From an uncultured Cycloclasticus sp. (GTDB lineage: Bacteria > Pseudomonadota > Gammaproteobacteria > Methylococcales > Cycloclasticaceae): 35,329 nucleotides of DNA. Made by a program: the position numbers and the translations under genes. The notes beneath the pieces were generated by a model, which was not told the origin of the DNA, ran no database searches, and saw only the letters and a list, made by a program, of their open reading frames with translations. This document shows, in pieces, positions 20,517-29,922 of the stretch (positions within the stretch are counted from its first letter, which is position 1; the number at the start of each line of letters is the position of its first letter). The DNA lies in the NCBI GenBank assembly GCA_913060865.1, contig CAJXTU010000006.1:83009-118337 (forward strand). The letters are read 5' to 3'.

Positions 20517-21602
20517 TTAATTAATAACAATATTTGGAATTTTACCGCTAAAGTCCTTCGATTTAACGGATAAGCTAGCCGCTAATTTTCTAGCCATATT
20601 TCTATAAATTGCTGAAATCTGACTATCTGGGTCTGCTGCTACTGTTGGCGTACCCGTATCGGTGCTCGTTCGAATTGAAATATCCAACGGCAACGCCCCT
20701 AAAAATTCAACGCCATATTCTTTTGCCATGGCTTCACCGCCACCTTGTCCAAAAATTGCTTCTTCATGCTGACAGTTTGAACAGATATGTAGGCTCATGT
20801 TCTCAATAATTCCAAGAACAGGAATATCCACTTTTTCAAACATTTTCAAACCCTTCTTAGCATCAATCAAGGCAATATCTTGCGGCGTTGTCACCACGAC
20901 TGAGCCCGTCACAGGAACAGTTTGCGCTAACGTTAGGTGAATATCGCCAGTGCCTGGTGGCATATCAATAATCAAATAGTCAAGATCATCCCAATTCGTA
21001 TCATTCAACAATTGACCTAAGGCTTGCGTCACCATCGGCCCACGCAAAATCATCGGCGTATCTTCATCTACTAAAAAACCAACCGACATCACTTGTAAGC
21101 CGTGGCCTTCCATTGGTTGAATGGTACGACCATCCGGCGATCCTGGACGACCACTAATTCCAAGCATCGTTGGTTGACTCGGGCCATAAATATCCGCATC
21201 AAGAATACCGACTCGCGCACCTTCTGCGAGGAGCGCCAAGGCTAAATTAACCGACGTTGTTGATTTACCAACACCCCCTTTACCAGAGGCTACCGCAATC
21301 ATATTCTTAACACCATTCATCGGCTTAATGCCTTTTTGAACGGCATGCGGTTTTATTAACCAACTCACCTCAACATTGGCGCTGACAACACCATCTAATT
21401 GCAATAAATGCTCCGCAATCTCCGACTCCAATCGATCTTTAATACCCGCAGCTGGGTAACCCAAAATGATTTCAACCCTCAGTTCGCCATTAACCAGCGT
21501 TAGATTCTTTAGCGCCTTATTAGGCAGAATACTATTTCCCGTTAAAGGGTCGACAAACTCTTTTAGCCGTTCTTCTATCTGTGTTACTGACAACTCACTC
21601 AT
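20517..21602 (-). CDS. apbC: Mrp/ApbC iron-sulfur cluster carrier ATPase
   Basis: A 361-residue P-loop NTPase of the Mrp/NBP35 family that binds and hands over 4Fe-4S clusters to apo-proteins. An N-terminal MIP18-like domain (about 1-85) is followed by the deviant Walker A GKGGVGKST (107-115), then DADIYGPSQP, IIDMPPGTGD, and the cluster-binding CSNC pair (C274, C277). I chose the ATG at 21602, which has a well-spaced GGAG ribosome site; an upstream in-frame ATG at 21626 lacks one. It diverges from the DUF3012 gene and the ATP-grasp operon. In many gammaproteobacteria the divergent neighbour is metG, which here lies 6.3 kb away. Confidence 0.96.
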   Translation of the reverse strand: MSELSVTQIEERLKEFVDPLTGNSILPNKALKNLTLVNGELRVEIILGYPAAGIKDRLESEIAEHLLQLDGVVSANVEVSWLIKPHAVQKGIKPMNGVKNMIAVASGKGGVGKSTTSVNLALALLAEGARVGILDADIYGPSQPTMLGISGRPGSPDGRTIQPMEGHGLQVMSVGFLVDEDTPMILRGPMVTQALGQLLNDTNWDDLDYLIIDMPPGTGDIHLTLAQTVPVTGSVVVTTPQDIALIDAKKGLKMFEKVDIPVLGIIENMSLHICSNCQHEEAIFGQGGGEAMAKEYGVEFLGALPLDISIRTSTDTGTPTVAADPDSQISAIYRNMARKLAASLSVKSKDFSGKIPNIVIN

Positions 21603-21666
21603 CTTTAGCTCCGGACGCCCATGCAATTAAACGGATTATTTTATACGTTTCTCAACTACTTTGGTT

Positions 21667-21689
21667 AACTTTAGACTGAGACTAAAGTT
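21667..21689. promoter_or_regulatory. Inverted repeat in the mrp / DUF3012 divergent gap
   Basis: Perfect 8-bp inverted repeat AACTTTAG / CTAAAGTT around a 7-base centre. It lies 65 bases before the mrp start and 96 bases before the small lipoprotein start. Position and symmetry suit an operator for a dimeric regulator, but no T-run follows, so it is not a terminator. No known box was recognised. Confidence 0.35.
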
Positions 21690-21784
21690 GATTCACATTA
21701 GAATCTGCTAACATCCATCTGAATTAGTTTAGTAATATCTACTTTTAGTACTTCTCACCTCAACAAAAAAACAAGGACCTTCAA

Positions 21785-21964
21785 ATGAAATTAGTAAAAA
21801 AAATCACGCTGACAATCCTTTCGACTGCATTTTTATTATCACTGACCGCTTGCACACCAGAAATTGGTAGCGAAGCTTGGTGTGGCGACATGAAGGCTAA
21901 ACCGAAAGCTGATTGGACTGCACAACAAGCCTCTGACTTTGCTAAAAGCTGTATTTTCAAATAA
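21785..21964 (+). CDS. Small DUF3012 lipoprotein
   Basis: A 59-residue protein beginning with a lipoprotein signal peptide: MKLVKK, a hydrophobic stretch, then LTAC with the lipid-bearing cysteine at residue 23. The mature part (TPEIGSEAWCGDMKAKPKAD, then WTAQQASDFAKSCIFK) matches what I know of DUF3012: a short marine proteobacterial lipoprotein with two conserved cysteines (here C33 and C56) and the GSEAWC and DWT motifs. Function is unknown. An AAGGA ribosome site sits well before the ATG. It has its own terminator, so it is not in the same transcript as the large fusion gene that follows. By residue 24 the sequence is TPEI, which suits outer-membrane sorting, as there is no Asp at +2. Confidence 0.85.
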   Translation: MKLVKKITLTILSTAFLLSLTACTPEIGSEAWCGDMKAKPKADWTAQQASDFAKSCIFK

Positions 21965-21990
21965 ATAGTTATACAAGCAATTTACTGATG

Positions 21991-22025
21991 GGCCCTTGAA
22001 ATAACAACCAAGGGCCTATTTTATT
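21991..22025 (+). terminator. Rho-independent terminator after the DUF3012 gene
   Basis: Perfect 8-bp stem GGCCCTTG / CAAGGGCC with a ten-base A-rich loop, followed by TATTTTATT. It lies 26 bases after the lipoprotein stop codon and separates that gene from the ATP-grasp operon. Confidence 0.82.
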
Positions 22026-22105
22026 CCAACAGGATAAAAACAAGCGAAGCGTCTCGTTTTGTGACCCAGCCATCAAACCAATGACCGCTCTTGCCTTACA
22101 ATTGT

Positions 22106-22146
22106 CTTAAGGCTTTAAGGTTATTTTAAGGTTCACTCATTATAAT
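22106..22146 (+). promoter_or_regulatory. Promoter of the ATP-grasp operon with PmrA-box-like direct repeats
   Basis: A perfect TATAAT lies at 22141-22146, 58 bases before the ATG. In place of a good -35 there are two direct half-sites, TTTAAG (22114-22119) and TTTAAG (22125-22130), separated by GTTAT. This fits the PmrA/BasR box pattern YTTAAK-N5-YTTAAK exactly, with the 11-bp spacing usual for OmpR/PhoB-family regulators. A third copy, CTTAAG (22106-22111), sits just upstream. The placement over the -35 region, 10 bases before the -10, is what an activator of this class would use. The identity of the regulator is inference; QseB and ColR-like regulators recognise similar repeats. Confidence 0.55.
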
Positions 22147-22203
22147 ATAGAGTGATCCTAACTAACCCATAGTTACTAGCAGGACTTTTAGAAAACTTAA
22201 GCG

Positions 22204-24639
22204 ATGCCATTAGATTTATCAGCAAAAAAATACCGACGGTTTTTCCGCCCACCTATCAGCTTATTGCTGATTTCTTTGCTGCTTCTAATTATCCACATTA
22301 TTAGCGAACAAAACCTGCATACTTTTCTTACACCCGAAAGTGTCTATAAATATACGCTCTCAATGTCTTTTGAGTCTGATGGCGACGTAACCGTGTCAAC
22401 CTACCTGCCAGACAATGACGATCGCCTAGAAATACTAGATGAAACAATCTCTTCCCCCAACTTTGATATTGAGCACCCAAACAACGTAGGGGGCCGCTAT
22501 ACCCAATGGAGCGGCAGTGAGGGCAACGAAACAATCTCATATAGTGCTTTATTATCACTAAAAGATATCCAATTCGAACTATCAAGCCACATCGAAATAC
22601 CAACGCTTTATGAACGCTGGCTAACACCCTACCTCAAAGAAACGGCCGCCATTCCAATTGCCCACCCTGAAATTCAAACGCTATGGACTCAAATAAAGCC
22701 CGCTAATCAAACGAATACGCTTGATGTGCTTCAATCTATCTACACGTATACCCACCAAAAGATCAATTCATTACCCTTCAAAGGCTTCACCGACTCTCTC
22801 ACCGCTTTGCGCCTTGGCGCAGCAAGCTGTAATGGGAAAAGTCGTCTATTTGTCAGCCTTGCTAGATTAAATAACTTACCCTCTCGGTTAGTCGGTGGCG
22901 TCATCCTAAATGGCGAAAAGAAAAAAACCTCACATCAGTGGGTTGAAGTTTACATAGAGGACTACTGGGTACCATTTGACCCGACCAACGGACACTTTGC
23001 GCGTCTCCCACGTCATTATGTCGCGCTTTATCGTGGCGACTATCAACTGTTCAAACACACCAGTAATATCAACTTTGACTACAGCTTTAACTCATACAAA
23101 GGCGATATTTCTCCCGCCTTATACCGAGATACTTCATCACCTGATACCTTAATACCTAATGCAGCAGCGCTACTAAAAACCCTAGGCCTTCCCTTACAAA
23201 CTAGCTACATCTTCTTGTTGTTCCCCATTTGCACCTTATTGATTACCTTTTTACGAAATATAGTCGGGCTTAAAACATTTGGTATCTTTATGCCTATGTT
23301 AATTGCCGCCGCTAGTGTGTACACAGGGTTTTGGGTGGGTCTTATCGGATTCACCACCGTTTTGCTTCTTGCCTTCATTAGTCATGTCATTTTAGGCAAA
23401 CTCAATATTCTCAAAATACCTCGACTAGCCTCCATTATTACCATTACAACCATTGCATCCTTAATAGGCATGTCGAGCATAGCGATACCACAAAATTTTG
23501 AGTTCGGATTATTAGCACTATTTCCAGTCGTTATTATCAGCTTTGCTGCAGATCGTATTCATCAAATGACAAATGAAAGTAGTTGGCCAGAACTGGCCCA
23601 GAACGCTGTAGGCACCTTGATAACTCTTTTTCTTTGTTACCTGATTTTCACTTCTTTTTTACTTCAAGGGTTGTTTGCACTGTACCCCGAGCTATTATTA
23701 ACCGTACTCGCCCTACAAATATCTATCGGTAGCTGGTCGGGTATGCGCATTTCCGAAATTATTCGATTTCGTCGACTCATGGGTCACGGTAAAAAACAAG
23801 TACTCAGCATTAATGGTCGCAATAGAGACCTCATATACAAACATAATAGCGAAACGCTTTTAAAACTCGCAACAAATAAATTAGAAACCAAAAAGTGCTT
23901 ATCACTAAATAACGTCCCTTGCCCAGCTACCATCGCAAGCTGCTATGAATTTGGAGACATTGCTGCCTTCATGCAGCAACTTGATAAGCAGGCAGATATC
24001 GTTATTAAACCAAACAAAGGCGCTCGTGGTAATGGCATCCTTCTACTCGCAAAAAAGCAACATGATGGTTTCATCAGCACATCTGGAAAGTCATGGCCTT
24101 CAAAGGCAATTAAGCAACACATCGAAGAAATTCTATCTGGTAGCTTCTCTCAAAATGGCGACGAAGATGCCGCCTACATTGAACCGATGATCCATCAGCA
24201 CCACACACTAAAGTCCTTTGCGCCATTGGGACTATGTGACATTCGAATCATCGTATGTAATGGCAAGTTATTGAGCGCAATGTTACGTATTCCAACCCTA
24301 AAATCGAAAGGTAAGGCTAACCTTCACAAAGGCGCTATTGGTACCTCTATCGACTTAAAAACAGGCCGGACTGGACGCAGCCTAATGGGTCGCCAAATTA
24401 TACACAACCATCCCGACAGCAATAAATCATTGCAAAATATCCAACTACCTTATTGGAATGATATAAAAAACATGGCCGAACAATGTTATCAATCAATCCC
24501 TTTAGGCTACATGGGGGTTGATATTTGCATCGATGAAAAAGAAGGACCTCTCGTACTAGAAGTTAATGGCCGACCTGGACTGGAAATACAGAATGTTAAT
24601 GATGAAGGTATTCATAATACGGTCTTAGGTGCTTTTTAA
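22204..24639 (+). CDS. Fusion protein: periplasmic transglutaminase-like domain, 7TM domain, cytoplasmic ATP-grasp ligase
   Basis: An 811-residue inner membrane protein with three parts. After an N-terminal membrane helix (17-34), a periplasmic region contains a transglutaminase-like core (about 165-285) with all three catalytic residues visible: C209 in AASCNGKSR, H244 in SHQWVEVY and D259 in PFDPTNG. Residues about 333-510 hold seven hydrophobic helices, like the 7TM module normally paired with a so-called inactive transglutaminase. The C-terminus (about 525-811) is an ATP-grasp ligase with the glycine-rich loop KPNKGARGNGI (602-612), DIRIIVCNG (679-687), HKGAIGTSID (708-717) and the metal-binding end VLEVNGRPGLEIQ (784-796), close to the RimK-related glutamate-ligase-like group. 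In related bacteria ligase and transglutaminase-7TM are usually separate genes; here they are one chain. This puts ligation in the cytoplasm and the cysteine triad in the periplasm. Substrate unknown. The stop overlaps the next ATG by one base. Confidence 0.88.
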   Translation: MPLDLSAKKYRRFFRPPISLLLISLLLLIIHIISEQNLHTFLTPESVYKYTLSMSFESDGDVTVSTYLPDNDDRLEILDETISSPNFDIEHPNNVGGRYTQWSGSEGNETISYSALLSLKDIQFELSSHIEIPTLYERWLTPYLKETAAIPIAHPEIQTLWTQIKPANQTNTLDVLQSIYTYTHQKINSLPFKGFTDSLTALRLGAASCNGKSRLFVSLARLNNLPSRLVGGVILNGEKKKTSHQWVEVYIEDYWVPFDPTNGHFARLPRHYVALYRGDYQLFKHTSNINFDYSFNSYKGDISPALYRDTSSPDTLIPNAAALLKTLGLPLQTSYIFLLFPICTLLITFLRNIVGLKTFGIFMPMLIAAASVYTGFWVGLIGFTTVLLLAFISHVILGKLNILKIPRLASIITITTIASLIGMSSIAIPQNFEFGLLALFPVVIISFAADRIHQMTNESSWPELAQNAVGTLITLFLCYLIFTSFLLQGLFALYPELLLTVLALQISIGSWSGMRISEIIRFRRLMGHGKKQVLSINGRNRDLIYKHNSETLLKLATNKLETKKCLSLNNVPCPATIASCYEFGDIAAFMQQLDKQADIVIKPNKGARGNGILLLAKKQHDGFISTSGKSWPSKAIKQHIEEILSGSFSQNGDEDAAYIEPMIHQHHTLKSFAPLGLCDIRIIVCNGKLLSAMLRIPTLKSKGKANLHKGAIGTSIDLKTGRTGRSLMGRQIIHNHPDSNKSLQNIQLPYWNDIKNMAEQCYQSIPLGYMGVDICIDEKEGPLVLEVNGRPGLEIQNVNDEGIHNTVLGAF

Positions 24640-26516
24640 TGTTGAAAAAGTATTTTTTCCAAACAGGGCTTCCTTACTTACTCTTTGCCGTATTCATTAT
24701 GCTGGGGCTTATCTTCACAGAAACCTTGTTAAAGAGTTCAGTGAAAGAATCACCCATCATAAAAATCACCCCGTCATCTGATGAGGCCGCAGAAACGTTA
24801 CAGGAAATTACTCCGCGTTTAGACGCATCTCACCCGCTTGTCACCCTCTTAATAAAGCGTTTAACATCTAATCAATTAACGAGTGTTAACGACGTATTAA
24901 ATGCTGAGCCATTTTTGTCGTTAAGCCCTGCTGAGCACTTGGCGATCGTTTCTTCTGGTGCTTATATCTTGTCAAAAAAGCAGGATTTCGTGAATACCAT
25001 AAATTTACTAACCACACTCACCGTCGAACAACGCGTTACACAAGATGTTCAATTTACGTTTGCCCACGCCCTATCGAAAACAGATAAAACAGCTGCATCT
25101 ATTGAGCAATACAAACTGTACAAAGCCTTCAAACCAAATGCCTTCGCCGCTATATTTAATCACGGATTATTATTAAAGAAAACGGGGGCATATGAAGAGG
25201 CTATTCGTGTCTTTTTAGATGCTGCCGATAAATCCAGCGGATACAAAAAAGCTAAAGCCCTCCGAAGTTTAGCTGATAGCGAATATCAACTTTCTCGCTA
25301 TACGGATGCTATTAATCACTATAAAAAATCCATCGAGTATCGTCCCAACAATCCCAACACGTGGGCCCAACTAGGCAAAACATTAAGCACATCTGGCGCA
25401 CCGTACAAGCAAGTCGCCGATGCTTACGAAAAAGCAACCGCATTAAATCAGCAAGACCCTAGATTGCAACTAGCCAAAGCTAAACATCAATTACAACATT
25501 ATGACTATACGGCTGTTTTTCATACTCTAAAAGCCACTCAATCCAAATCTAACAATATAAATGGTCATCGCTTGTTGGCGTGGAGTTTTCTTGAGCTAGG
25601 TAAACGAAATAACGCAAAAAAACATATCCGTTATTTGATTCAACACGAAACCTCTAAACAGGGCAAGAAAAAAGCTGAGCTGATGCTTCTATACGCGAAT
25701 AAGCACTACAAAGAGTTGCTCTCGCAAGCTAAAAACTCTCAACTGAAATCAGATGATTTTTATTATTTGAAAGCGCTCGCCTATAGAAAATTAGGGTTCT
25801 ACAAAAGTTCAATGCCTATACTTAACCGCCTCTTAGATAGTGAAACTCATCACTGGCGTTCGCGCATTCAGATTGCACGAATCAAGCGATCTCGCCATCA
25901 ATACAATGAGGCCGTAGCCGACTATCAGCAATTGATACTACATAATAATGCTATTGCGTTTTTGCCCTTCGAGCTGTCGTTAACATATGAGTCTCTTGCT
26001 CAAGCCAAACCCGCTCTTGAGTCTATTCGTCACGCACTTTCAATTAATGCAGCGAATAAAGCTTATCAGCTGGCTAATATCCGACTCCTACAGCTATCAG
26101 GTGCTTCGGATGCTGCGCTACTTGGAATTAACACACTGTTGGCAGAAAATCCCACTTATGCTCGGGCAATCAAACTCAAAGCTCAACTGCAAATAGCCAG
26201 AAATGAACCCGACAATGCCACTAAAACACTTGAACAAGTCCTTGCCCTACAGCCTTCAAACATTGCCACGCTTAAAAAATTGTCTGAACTACTGATCGAT
26301 CGCTCTCGTTATAAGCTCGCCCAGAGTTATTTAACAACGCTTCTTACCGAGCAAAGCGATAGTGTTGACGCTAGATACCTTCTAGCTTACTCTTACTTCA
26401 AGGACAAAAAAATCGCACAAGCATTGACTGAATTAGACAATGTATTGAAACTAAACCATCAACACCAACTAGCAAAAGAACTTAAACGCACCATTAACTC
26501 CAACTTCATTAGCTAA
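24639..26516 (+). CDS. Membrane-anchored tetratricopeptide repeat protein
   Basis: A 625-residue protein with a single N-terminal membrane helix (about 11-30), positive residues before it, and a long periplasmic part made of helical hairpins. TPR-like units are clearest at 170-200 (NHGLLLKKTGAYEEAIRVFL), 206-236 (LRSLADSEYQLSRYTDAINH), 240-272, 373-402, 440-470, 508-536 and 570-605. Such proteins are scaffolds that hold multi-protein complexes, for example in polysaccharide export. No enzymatic motif is seen. The ATG overlaps the stop of the ATP-grasp fusion (TAATG), so the two are translationally coupled and likely work together. A 21-base gap leads to the outer-membrane barrel gene. The family is not one I can name. 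Confidence 0.82.
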   Translation: MLKKYFFQTGLPYLLFAVFIMLGLIFTETLLKSSVKESPIIKITPSSDEAAETLQEITPRLDASHPLVTLLIKRLTSNQLTSVNDVLNAEPFLSLSPAEHLAIVSSGAYILSKKQDFVNTINLLTTLTVEQRVTQDVQFTFAHALSKTDKTAASIEQYKLYKAFKPNAFAAIFNHGLLLKKTGAYEEAIRVFLDAADKSSGYKKAKALRSLADSEYQLSRYTDAINHYKKSIEYRPNNPNTWAQLGKTLSTSGAPYKQVADAYEKATALNQQDPRLQLAKAKHQLQHYDYTAVFHTLKATQSKSNNINGHRLLAWSFLELGKRNNAKKHIRYLIQHETSKQGKKKAELMLLYANKHYKELLSQAKNSQLKSDDFYYLKALAYRKLGFYKSSMPILNRLLDSETHHWRSRIQIARIKRSRHQYNEAVADYQQLILHNNAIAFLPFELSLTYESLAQAKPALESIRHALSINAANKAYQLANIRLLQLSGASDAALLGINTLLAENPTYARAIKLKAQLQIARNEPDNATKTLEQVLALQPSNIATLKKLSELLIDRSRYKLAQSYLTTLLTEQSDSVDARYLLAYSYFKDKKIAQALTELDNVLKLNHQHQLAKELKRTINSNFIS

Positions 26517-26537
26517 TCAATAATAAGGTAACCTATC

Positions 26538-27659
26538 ATGAAAAAACTTATCCTGTGTGGCGCTATTGCCGCCTCAATCAGCGGAGCAGCCCATGCTGTT
26601 AATATAAAAGGTGAAATCTCACCCGGTTATGACTCAAACCCTTATCGCCTTTCCGATAACCTAGATGACGGGGAAACTTGGTTTATAGATACTAATGTGT
26701 TTGCAAATCAAAAGTTTGGCAAATTTAAGCTCAGTGGCGCTCTAAAAAATCGCGCTCATGAAGGCTCGTTTAATAATGCTGATGTATTAACCGGAAAACT
26801 AAAAGGGCGATACAAGAGTAAATACAAGGTTATGGGTAAGAAGTTTTCCTCATCCACTACCATCGAAACAGGATTCAAAGATAAAACTTATGTTAGTCGT
26901 ACGACAGGAAAGATCGGCACATCCAGCGGTCAAAAAATAGAAGATCGCTATGATTACGATTACTGGAAACTTTCAACATCCAGTTCAGTTTGGCTACACG
27001 ATCAAGTAAAAACCAGTTTGGCGCTAAGCTACAACAACAAAAGTTATGATGACCAAAACATCGCCACGCTTAGCAATCTTGATTACGAGCAAGCTAACTT
27101 ACTAAACACTTGGCTATTTAAACAAAATAAAGACAGCGACTTCAAACTCGCTTTTGGTATTGGTGAAAGAGATTATGACAATAGACGCCAAAAAACTAAA
27201 GCAGGTGCATTAGTTGCTGGTTCTGACCTTAAATACTTCTACCATAATATTAAACTGTCTCATCAGCATGACCTAACGCCAAGTCTTAGCGTTGATCTCG
27301 GTATAAAATACGAGGAAAGAACTGATAATGGCTTTGGCTATTACGACACTGACACCATCAAGTACTCGGCTAACGCTTTCTACACGTTGGACAACGAGAT
27401 AACACTATTTGCTAAAACTAGTTACGAAGATTACGAATACAACAACGCATTTACAACTGATGAAGATGATGAAGACTTACCTGGCAGACAAGGCTACACC
27501 ATCAGGCTAGGTGCAGAAAAGGACCTAAATGAGCTAACTGGTCTACCCGCTCTTGGTTTTATTGGTGTCAGACTTGATGACTTTGATTCAAATGATCCCC
27601 TTTACGAATACGACCGTTACCAAGCATTTATGGGTATCAAAGTAAGCTTTAAGCAATAG
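26538..27659 (+). CDS. Predicted outer-membrane beta-barrel protein
   Basis: A 373-residue exported protein. The signal peptide is clear (residues 1-20, ending AHA before VNIKG). The mature protein is a run of alternating strands rich in Tyr, Asp and Lys, broken by charged turns (for example YDDQN, DEDDEDL), typical of an outer-membrane barrel. The last strand, YQAFMGIKVSFKQ, resembles a barrel C-terminal signature except that two residues follow the Phe. The opening GEISPGYDSNPYRLSD resembles surface-facing barrels that accompany TPR or export proteins. No specific family was recognised. A GGTAA ribosome site precedes the ATG. It is the last gene of the operon, ending at a terminator, and would give the system an outer-membrane partner. 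Confidence 0.78.
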   Translation: MKKLILCGAIAASISGAAHAVNIKGEISPGYDSNPYRLSDNLDDGETWFIDTNVFANQKFGKFKLSGALKNRAHEGSFNNADVLTGKLKGRYKSKYKVMGKKFSSSTTIETGFKDKTYVSRTTGKIGTSSGQKIEDRYDYDYWKLSTSSSVWLHDQVKTSLALSYNNKSYDDQNIATLSNLDYEQANLLNTWLFKQNKDSDFKLAFGIGERDYDNRRQKTKAGALVAGSDLKYFYHNIKLSHQHDLTPSLSVDLGIKYEERTDNGFGYYDTDTIKYSANAFYTLDNEITLFAKTSYEDYEYNNAFTTDEDDEDLPGRQGYTIRLGAEKDLNELTGLPALGFIGVRLDDFDSNDPLYEYDRYQAFMGIKVSFKQ

Positions 27660-27675
27660 ATTACCATCTAAAATG

Positions 27676-27709
27676 AAAAGCGCAGTGTCATCGGCATTGC
27701 GCTTTTTTT
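27676..27709 (+). terminator. Rho-independent terminator closing the ATP-grasp operon
   Basis: A 12-bp stem AAAAGCGCAGTG / CATTGCGCTTTT with one G-T pair, a seven-base loop and a T7 run, 16 bases after the barrel gene stop. It separates the operon from metG. Confidence 0.88.
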
Positions 27710-27885
27710 GTCTCTAATCGCAGGTTCTCCTTAAACACCTCGCTTGCGTCAATAACACTCTCTCCCATGATGCCCGTTTTGTGGGACAATACCGCCAAAT
27801 AAATCAAACCCTTAACGTTAAATCCGAAGAGTAACTACCTGTTTTATCTTGTGGTTAGTTCTATTCCTATTTATAAGCCATAGTT

Positions 27886-29922
27886 ATGTCAAAAGAAATT
27901 AGAAAGATTCTCGTCACCAGTGCACTGCCATACGCCAATGGCCCAATCCATATTGGCCATTTAGTCGAATACATCCAAACCGATATCTGGGTGCGTTTTC
28001 AAAAACAACGCGGCCACAGTTGCCACTATGTTTGCGCCGATGATGCTCATGGCACTCCAATTATGCTCAGAGCACAGCAAGAAGGCATCACGCCTGAGCA
28101 ATTAATCGCCGACACGTGGACCCAACATAACGCTGACTTTAAAGGTTTTAATATCGGGTTTGATAATTTCTACACAACTCATTCTGACGAAACACGTGAT
28201 TTTGCCGAGCTCATTTATAACCGCCTACACGCGAAAAAATACATCCACAGCAAAGTCATTACCCAAGCGTATGACCCTGTTAAAGAGATGTTTCTTCCTG
28301 ATCGGTTCATTAAAGGCGAGTGCCCTAAGTGTGGCGCAAAGGATCAATATGGTGACAACTGCGAAGCCTGCAGCGCTACTTATTCACCCACGGATCTAGT
28401 CAACCCCTTTTCGGTTATTTCTGGTGAAAAACCCATCGAGAAAGACTCTGAGCATTACTTCTTTAAACTTGGCGAATTTGAAGCCATGCTGAAAGAATGG
28501 ACTCACTCCGGCCACCTACAAGAGCAAGTGGCCAATAAACTTAATGAGTGGTTTGACGTTGGGCTACAAGACTGGGACATCTCGCGTGATGCACCTTATT
28601 TTGGTTTTGAAATCCCTAATGCACCTGGTAAGTTTTTTTACGTTTGGCTTGATGCCCCCGTGGGTTACATGGGTAGTTTCAAAAACTTATGTGATAGAGA
28701 GGGCTTAGACTTTGATGAGTATTGGTCAAAAGACAGCTCCACAGAGCTCTACCATTTCATCGGCAAAGACATCGTTTATTTTCACGCGCTATTTTGGCCG
28801 GCCATGTTAACGGGTGCTGGCTTTAGAACACCAACGGCTATTTTTTCGCATGGTTTTCTAACCGTTAATGGCGAAAAAATGTCCAAATCTCGTGGTACAT
28901 TTATTAAAGCCCGCACATTTTTAGACCACCTAAACCCAGAGTACTTACGCTACTACTTTGCGGCAAAACTAAGTAACCGCGTTGAAGACATAGACCTTAA
29001 TTTTGAAGACTTTAGTCAACGCGTCAATACCGACCTTGTTAATAAAGTCGTTAATATTGCTAGCCGTTGCAGCGGTTTTATTAAAAAGCGTTTTGATGGT
29101 CAATTATCCGCAAATTGTAGCGAGCCTGAGCTATTCCAATCGTTTGTCAATGAAAGTGACAACATTGCCACGCTCTATGAAACACGCGAATACGGCAAAG
29201 CCATGCGCGCCATTTCATCACTGGCAGACAAAGCCAATCAATATATTGACGATAAACAGCCCTGGGTTATTGCAAAACAGTCTGATAGCGATGAAGAATT
29301 ACACAATATATGTAGCATCGGCATCAATTTATTTTATGTTATTGCAGGTTATTTAAAACCCGTTGTGCCCGACATGGTCAGCAAGGCCGAAACCTTTTTG
29401 AACACAGGCGAATTTACTTGGCCAGATCAATTTACCCCACTCACTGAACACCGCATCAATAAATTCAAACCATTAATGACACGCGTTGACCCTGATAAGA
29501 TAGCGGCCGTTATAGACGCTTCAAAAGAAAACTTAGAGAAGACCGCTGCTAAAATGCAACAAAAAGCGCCCATAAAAAAGGCAGAAGAAATATCCGATAC
29601 GATTGAGTTTGATGATTTTGCCAAAATTGATTTACGCGTTGCACTGATTGAAAAGGCTGAGCACGTAGAAGGAGCAGATAAATTATTACGTCTAACATTA
29701 AGCCTTGGCGAGGAAACACGACACGTCTTAGCGGGCATAAAATCAGCCTACGCACCTGAGGACCTTGAGGGCAGGCTGACCGTCATGGTAGCAAACCTCA
29801 GGCCACGAAAAATGCGATTTGGAACATCCGAAGGTATGGTGTTAGCAGCTGGTCTAGGCGGGGATGAGCTATGGATTTTATCACCCGACAATGGTGCAAA
29901 GCCCGGTATGCGTATCAAGTAA
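27886..29922 (+). CDS. metG: Methionyl-tRNA synthetase
   Basis: A 678-residue class I synthetase that charges tRNA-Met. It has the HIGH-type signature HIGH at 22-25, a single zinc knuckle with four cysteines (C146, C149, C159, C162), the KMSKS loop at 331-335, an anticodon-binding helical domain, and a C-terminal tRNA-binding (EMAP/Trbp111-like) domain from about 575 that mediates dimerisation. This is the E. coli-type long form. TTGTGG (27849-27854) and TATAAG (27872-27877), 17 bases apart, could be its promoter but would leave almost no leader, so I do not call it separately. No Shine-Dalgarno is evident. It normally adjoins mrp; here the ATP-grasp block lies between. Confidence 0.97.

Follow-up and report, generated by a model that had tools for sequence, protein, structure and literature searches.

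The window analysed here, that is, the whole stretch of 35,329 nucleotides of DNA from an uncultured Cycloclasticus sp. (contig CAJXTU010000006.1), carries a three-gene operon. It encodes a membrane protein in which a transglutaminase-like (TG) domain, seven transmembrane helices (7TM) and an ATP-grasp ligase are fused, a tetratricopeptide repeat (TPR) protein, and a predicted outer-membrane beta-barrel (Table 1). The three genes, their domain make-up and their membrane logic, as proposed in an earlier note made from the sequence alone, are borne out by the open reading frames (ORFs), Pfam profiles and predicted models. The fusion and TPR ORFs share one base, and the barrel ORF begins 21 bases past the TPR ORF. 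That the operon has one promoter and one terminator is plausible. The stem-loop behind the barrel gene is by far the longest of the 9 terminator-like sites found by scanning the region (6.4 in shuffles), and a candidate promoter element upstream recurs elsewhere; against this, a consensus promoter scan from 21704 to the start of the fusion gene listed none (8 promoter-like sites region-wide, versus 16.5 in shuffles). An Rfam search of 21500-28000 gave no match.

Table 1. Features of the operon, in positions of the window
Feature	Position	Strand	Basis
Fusion gene, 811 residues	22204..24639	+	ORF; Pfam and NCBIfam profiles; predicted model; membrane sides predicted
TPR protein gene, 625 residues	24639..26516	+	ORF; Pfam; one N-terminal hydrophobic anchor; net charge +29
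Predicted outer-membrane beta-barrel gene, 373 residues, N-terminal signal-like segment	26538..27659	+	ORF; 16-strand model
Candidate promoter: PmrA-like box TTTAAG-N5-TTTAAG (22114-22130) and TATAAT (22141-22146)	22114..22146	+	
Intrinsic terminator-like stem-loop, 15 pairs, T-rich tail	27675..27707	+	Sequence scan
Transglut_core domain, residues 168-260, with Cys209, His244 and Asp259	22705..22983	+	Pfam
7TM_transglut domain, residues 325-525	23176..23778	+	Pfam, 134 bits; helices in model
ATP-grasp ligase domain, residues 530-806	23791..24621	+	ATPgrasp_ST; TIGR02291; conserved motifs; structural matches

The fused enzyme and its relation to Rlo

The fusion protein is laid out as an N-terminal anchor, a periplasmic TG-like domain, the 7TM part and a cytoplasmic RimK-type ATP-grasp ligase, with the sides of the membrane predicted. 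Three Pfam families score above their cut-offs, namely Transglut_core (55 bits), 7TM_transglut and ATPgrasp_ST (209 bits, residues 539-806), and the 'inactive transglutaminase' model PF14400 stays under its own (20.7 bits, cut-off 25). The catalytic triad of PF01841 is complete in the window protein, and the domain is predicted from its sequence to be active. Among the NCBIfam models, TIGR02291 matches the fusion at 245 bits (E 7.6e-73, cut-off 314) and the RloB model NF052267 at 112.6 bits (cut-off 900). Since both scores fall under the cut-offs, both halves of the fusion are related to the named families without belonging to them. No glycosyltransferase family scores above its cut-off in any of the three operon proteins (Pfam, NCBIfam).

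The AlphaFold model of the fusion has a predicted local distance difference test score (pLDDT) of 82.5 and a predicted template modelling score of 0.63. Its best structural match is 3isr, an entry titled putative cysteine protease (Z 24.7 over 252 residues, root-mean-square deviation 2.8), and the ligase part matches ArgX (Z 19.1), LysX (17.8) and RimK (17.7). A sequence search of the PDB with residues 41-324 found nothing significant (best E 0.47).

Both halves have homologues in the rlo operon of Pseudomonas aeruginosa (mBio 2025; PMC12239564). According to that paper, the operon governs hypoosmotic tolerance, biofilm and antibiotic sensitivity, its phenotypes include cell shape, RloA cleaves poly-glutamate in vitro, cutting stretches of at least eight glutamates, rloA mutants are rescued by loss of rloB or rloC, and the authors leave the molecular role of the products open. 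Given this cleavage and this rescue, what RloB and RloC make may well be rich in glutamate and in need of cutting.

To place the window protein, 51 TG-7TM proteins were pooled, comprising its own, those of loci L047-L076 and those of 20 stretches chosen from the searched genomes. In the tree of the 7TM part, a branch with support of 100/99 sets apart 38 of the 51 rows, 31 counted as fused and 7 as split genes, and a second branch (100/98) sets apart the fused rows, so that a single origin of the fusion fits. The rows are not independent, because L051 and L073, like L066 and L074, are near copies; L073 and L074 are counted as fused though their contigs stop inside or before the ligase. Ten RloB-type rows fall outside the 38-row clade and do not form one clade themselves. 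The remaining rows (L075, L076 and L089) are in neither group, L089 being a very long branch.

The two groups differ in their catalytic residues and in their neighbours. Of the 38 window-type proteins, 37 retain the equivalents of Cys209 and His244, the exception being L072, and the third position is Asp in 26 and cysteine in L072. RloB-type proteins have neither the catalytic Cys nor the His in any of the 27 genomes that carry a separate pair (22 + 5 loci). ATP-grasp motifs are conserved in both groups alike. An RloA-type protease (PF05618) adjoins each of the 10 RloB-type loci with sufficient flank; a profile of 10 such proteases found one beside none of the 38 window-type loci, within the flanking stretches examined. 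The earlier note was thus right that no RimK-associated protease adjoins the operon. Its further idea, that the TPR and barrel genes replace the protease, can be made more precise: in our sample the Cys/His pair is kept only in the window-type class, which makes the predicted live TG domain the better candidate for that replacement.

Judged by sequence, then, the core of the fusion is homologous to RloB and RloC and yet belongs to a separate, sister class to Rlo. The operon had been put forward as an undescribed system. This does not hold for the ligase-7TM-TG core, given its homology to rloB and rloC (PMC12239564). In the literature searched, the Rlo paper was the only one relevant to the operon, and the neighbourhood may have been mentioned before.

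Several relatives depart from both patterns. In two Thermodesulfobacteriota (L075:2780-4929 and L076:8025-12000), an RloA-like ORF adjoins the TG-7TM and ligase genes, the TG Cys/His are lost, and the branch sits beside the 38-row clade with modest support (86/85). In G013, another Cycloclasticus, L089:6581-8206 encodes a very divergent lone TG-7TM protein with RloA/RimB-like and ligase-like ORFs around it on the opposite strand. The sole PF05618 match in the window's own genome is an ORF that also carries a RimK domain (L097:1477-2886, a single ORF of 469 residues with PF05618, RimB-type, and RimK domains). A PF14401 search of the same genome found nothing, and its controls were equally silent.

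TPR and barrel genes across genomes

A TPR gene lies directly 3' of the fusion in each of the 28 fused loci whose sequence runs on for 900 bases or more; three others (L051, L073, L074) end too soon to tell. A barrel gene is next in order in 14 of the 27 fused loci with enough sequence, L048 also ending too soon. The 13 fused loci that lack it comprise 8 Hyphomonadaceae, 4 Kangiella and G240; L056, from a record named Kangiella, has the barrel. All seven split-gene loci carry TPR and barrel genes in the same order, including L084, whose ligase frame is broken and which was not scored by the rule on gene gaps. The coupling of the three genes proposed in the earlier note therefore holds throughout for the TPR gene and only in part for the barrel. 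As the barrel accompanies fused and split genes alike, it is probably ancestral to the window-type class.

Among 369 genomes of the taxonomic class, 9 have a window-type system and 4 have RloABC (E up to 1e-60). The barrel profile matches 10 of the 369. Eight of these belong to the 9 genomes that have the system, and the other two (G226, G264) to the remaining 360 (Fisher p 5e-14, no kinship correction). The G264 match is an EpsL above its own cut-off. In G226, a single ORF (L148:8554-10173) joins a TPR-like N-terminal part to a barrel of the window family, and no TG or ligase ORF was found in the stretch examined. Because the three-gene arrangement recurs in distant bacteria, it is not due to chance, and this recurrence together with the reciprocal co-occurrence rules out chance neighbours.

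The window TPR protein matches many TPR families in Pfam, has one N-terminal hydrophobic segment (residues 13-31) and scores 27 bits against the PgaA model (cut-off 367). Across the 33 full-length TPR ORFs, the net charge is positive in 20 of 20 loci with a barrel and in 1 of 13 without (L064, +4). Compared with other ORFs of the same loci, the TPR charge is shifted by a median of +4.8 per 100 residues where the barrel is present versus -4.3 where it is absent (17 of 20 and 13 of 13 loci, respectively, had at least two ORFs for comparison). Since these shifts are opposite, the difference does not reflect proteome acidity only. A positive TPR charge as a trait of the whole class was rejected, as only 21 of 33 are positive. 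We regard the apparent charge-barrel link as a lead for acidic cargo.

No Pfam or NCBIfam family scores above its cut-off in the window barrel. Its AlphaFold model (pLDDT 87.7) has 16 strands after an N-terminal helix, its localisation being predicted, and a fold search matches OmpG, porins, AlgE and FhaC/CdiB. PgaA and PelB are not among the matches listed, which excludes nothing; the PelB barrel model matches at E 0.038. A weak hit of the barrel profile (E 6e-6) is a polysaccharide barrel of the EpsL type, which itself scores 282 bits against TIGR03014 (cut-off 275). TIGR03014 does not match the window barrel at E up to 1, and it matches a split-form barrel (L080) at E 5.9e-6 over about 110 residues (25.5 bits, far under the cut-off of 275).

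Some of these loci have further genes. An extra TPR gene lies upstream of the split operon in 4 of 7 loci (L080:3181-4641, L081:222-2057, L084:13550-15124 and, weakly, L078:2459-4279). The two genes right before the fusion in L050 (L050:6945-9785) encode TrkA and TrkH for potassium uptake, which fits an osmotic theme; two ORFs of the same sizes (458 and 483 residues) also occur in L051, L073 and L148, in the first two upstream of the fusion. On plasmids, 5 of 72,556 records match, all below 60% identity, and 2 cover at least 80% of the query; one is a Legionella record in which two separate genes are annotated, the other an Aeromonas record of 4.9 Mb.

Genomic setting and candidate promoter

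In the window's genome the operon stands between mrp and metG. The fusion was found in 3 of 18 Cycloclasticus genomes searched (G000, G003 and G014), several of which are incomplete, and separate RloB/RloC-type pairs in G004, G005, G008, G009, G014 and G015. These genomes yielded 16 metG loci. The operon is present at the window's, and mrp adjoins metG without it in 10, including G001, whose MetG is the closest (94%). By blastp, mrp was not seen in the stretch examined at the other five, and at one of these (L111) a short DNA match to the end of mrp reveals an operon-less junction. The match of G008 to the window skips from 21971 to 27751 across about 90 bases; because the alignment jumps over it, the operon unit is a cassette, about 5.8 kb long. 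In the gap between mrp and the fusion gene, 21785-21964 encodes a 59-residue DUF3012 lipoprotein-like ORF, and matching DNA is found also at several junctions without the operon.

The locus L047, on a contig of a Cycloclasticus metagenome-assembled genome with a 71% match to the window, is the same DNA as a contig of G014, which is grouped in the same genus as the window's genome. That G014 carries both systems is doubtful. The contig with the cassette holds a metG start 91% like the window's and another contig a full metG at 82%, and given these two different copies the bin may mix strains.

The candidate promoter contains the element TTAAG-N6-TTAAG-N10-TATAAT (22115-22146), which recurs, its spacing unchanged, upstream of the fusion in another Cycloclasticus (G003). 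We take its box to be PmrA-like. With the allowed spacing, the element has two matches in the window's own genome, before the fusion and before a cptA-type gene, and three in G003, before the fusion, before cptA and at one other site. The cptA-type phosphoethanolamine transferase (L116:3073-5158, G000 contig C1) scores 731 bits against PRK10649 (cut-off 404); it is followed by a prokaryotic diacylglycerol kinase gene (PF01219). A cptA gene was found in 7 of 18 Cycloclasticus genomes, and a degenerate box lies at -65 to -67 upstream of 4 of 6 of them, with near matches seen by eye in the other two and no shuffle control. The only evidence that counts for a shared element is that two species have it in front of both the fusion gene and cptA, together with the degenerate form found more widely before cptA. 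Upstream of fusion or TG-7TM genes, the box occurs in 3 of 31 stretches, the window's included, and it is not present upstream of the L047 fusion gene. The genome has four OmpR-type regulators, two of which score best against PmrA, under its cut-off.

A possible pathway and known systems

We propose that the operon is a sister class of Rlo with an outer-membrane arm, by which an acidic amino-acid product is made, processed and passed to the outer membrane; we give this a probability of about 0.4. The ligase would add acidic, glutamate-like amino acids to a peptide or carrier in the cytoplasm, and the 7TM part would pass or present the chain across the inner membrane. The TG-fold domain could then cut the chain or transfer it to a periplasmic acceptor, in the role of the secreted retropepsin RloA, and the TPR protein, whose net charge is positive in all scored loci with a barrel, could lead the acidic product on to the barrel, where it would be displayed or released. 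That the promoter element also precedes cptA suggests that the set may be used during outer-membrane remodelling. The product, whose chemistry we infer, is most likely an acidic peptide polymer or tag, and its export and linkage to the envelope, like its polymeric nature, are likewise what we infer for the operon.

In favour of this proposal are the separate clade with its Cys and His kept and no RloA-type protease adjoining, the conserved ATP-grasp motifs, the coupling of TPR and barrel genes to the fusion and the reciprocal co-occurrence of barrel and system, the weak link of the barrel to EpsL, the joint TPR-barrel ORF of G226, the positive TPR charge where a barrel is present, and the cleavage and rescue results for RloA. 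A number of observations weigh against it. D-cycloserine synthetase, cyanophycin synthetase and D-Ala-D-Ala ligases resemble the ligase part as well (Z 16.6 to 16.8), and because these score within about 1.5 Z of RimK the fold alone does not name the substrate; glutamate is carried over from RimK and RloA. At the third catalytic position, 11 of the 38 TG domains have Gly (L050, L051, L052, L053, L056, L066, L068, L069, L071, L073 and L074, all with Cys and His intact), and L072 has no catalytic Cys while TPR and barrel are still present. The barrel's fold matches are mostly generic porins, which speak for the fold class only. The charge-barrel link rests on about 3 changes (the tree has 3 in the presence of the barrel and 4 in the sign of the charge), and its kinship-corrected test has 2 independent pairs and p 0.5. 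The promoter pattern, counted in the 18 Cycloclasticus genomes, has 12 matches versus 10 for the reversed control; since these counts are alike, the pattern alone is at chance, and a genome-wide PmrA-like regulon was rejected. The main evidence against obligate export is the barrel-less lineages. A profile search that detected three positive controls found no barrel in 13 whole genomes with fusion and TPR, their completeness mostly unstated, which means that the outer-membrane step is inessential to the core, or that another protein serves there.

These same lineages favour a periplasmic modification without export, in which the ligase-7TM part, as in Rlo, adds poly-glutamate to an acceptor that is periplasmic or linked to peptidoglycan and the live TG domain cuts the chain back. 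The TPR protein would then hold cell-wall enzymes together as a scaffold, and the barrel would be an accessory osmotic porin. The porin-like fold matches agree with it, as do the hypoosmotic tolerance, cell shape and antibiotic sensitivity phenotypes of Rlo (PMC12239564). Against it, the barrel goes with the fused and with the split branch, hence is probably ancestral, and few genomes that lack the system have it (2 of 360). It is a serious contender, to which we would still give odds well short of even.

A bolder form of our proposal is a Gram-negative machine for secreting poly-amino acids, organised in the manner of the synthase systems for polysaccharides. One membrane protein would make, pass and trim an acidic poly-amide, a cationic TPR protein would act as its conveyor and the barrel as a dedicated outer-membrane pore. 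The window has the TPR scaffold and the predicted barrel of such a synthase-type layout, the barrel being absent in 13 of 27 fused loci. We consider this form rather unlikely.

It is less probable again that the TG domain is a true transglutaminase that links the ligase-made peptide to outer-membrane or periplasmic proteins by an isopeptide bond, with TPR protein and barrel as acceptor and anchor. Transglut_core does score above its cut-off, and Cys and His are kept in 37 of 38, but Gly replaces Asp in 11 of 38, the model aligns best to 3isr, titled a putative cysteine protease (Z 24.7), and TG-fold domains in prokaryotes are often peptidases. We attach slightly less weight still to a trans-envelope sensor, in which TG-7TM would sense the state of the envelope and gate the ligase while TPR protein and barrel report from the outer membrane. 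The 7TM part is indeed placed between two enzyme domains, and the operon and cptA have the promoter element in common; catalytic motifs kept in both enzyme domains would be unexpected for a pure sensor. An ordinary rloBC pair standing by accident beside unrelated TPR and porin genes would explain the homology to RloB and RloC and is already contradicted by the gene order in distant genomes, by the reciprocal co-occurrence of barrel and system and by the separate clade with its live TG domain, so that we give it next to no credence.

If the operon is the sister class of Rlo that we propose, its live TG domain, missing protease and added outer-membrane arm would suggest what the product is for, and the window-type class would be a natural system of environmental bacteria in which maker, processor and exit may be removed one by one.

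Four known systems help to place it. Like the rlo operon, the window has an RloB-type TG-fold with 7TM and an RloC-type ATP-grasp ligase in one operon; unlike it, the two are one fused protein, the TG Cys/His are kept, no RloA-type protease adjoins, TPR and barrel genes are added, and the clade is separate. In terms of family models, the fusion is not an RloB, its ligase is related to RloC by homology and not as an equivalog, and the operon lacks RloA. With the RimK/RimB system of ribosomal S6 glutamylation, the window ligase domain has the RimK fold and motifs in common; unlike RimK, it is membrane-bound, with no adjoining RimB. EpsL (TIGR03014) shows weak homology to the window-family barrel, the window barrel itself not reaching the 275 bits of membership. 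The synthase-dependent secretion of exopolysaccharides, as by PgaA and also AlgK/AlgE and PelB, differs in that its inner-membrane enzyme is a glycosyltransferase, a family not found above cut-off in the three operon proteins; the window enzyme is of the amide-ligase type. In both, an inner-membrane maker is combined with a periplasmic processing domain, a TPR scaffold and a barrel, which in the window has about 16 strands and is predicted to lie in the outer membrane. The TPR domain of PgaA has been proposed to guide a polysaccharide to the outer membrane (PMC9384988).

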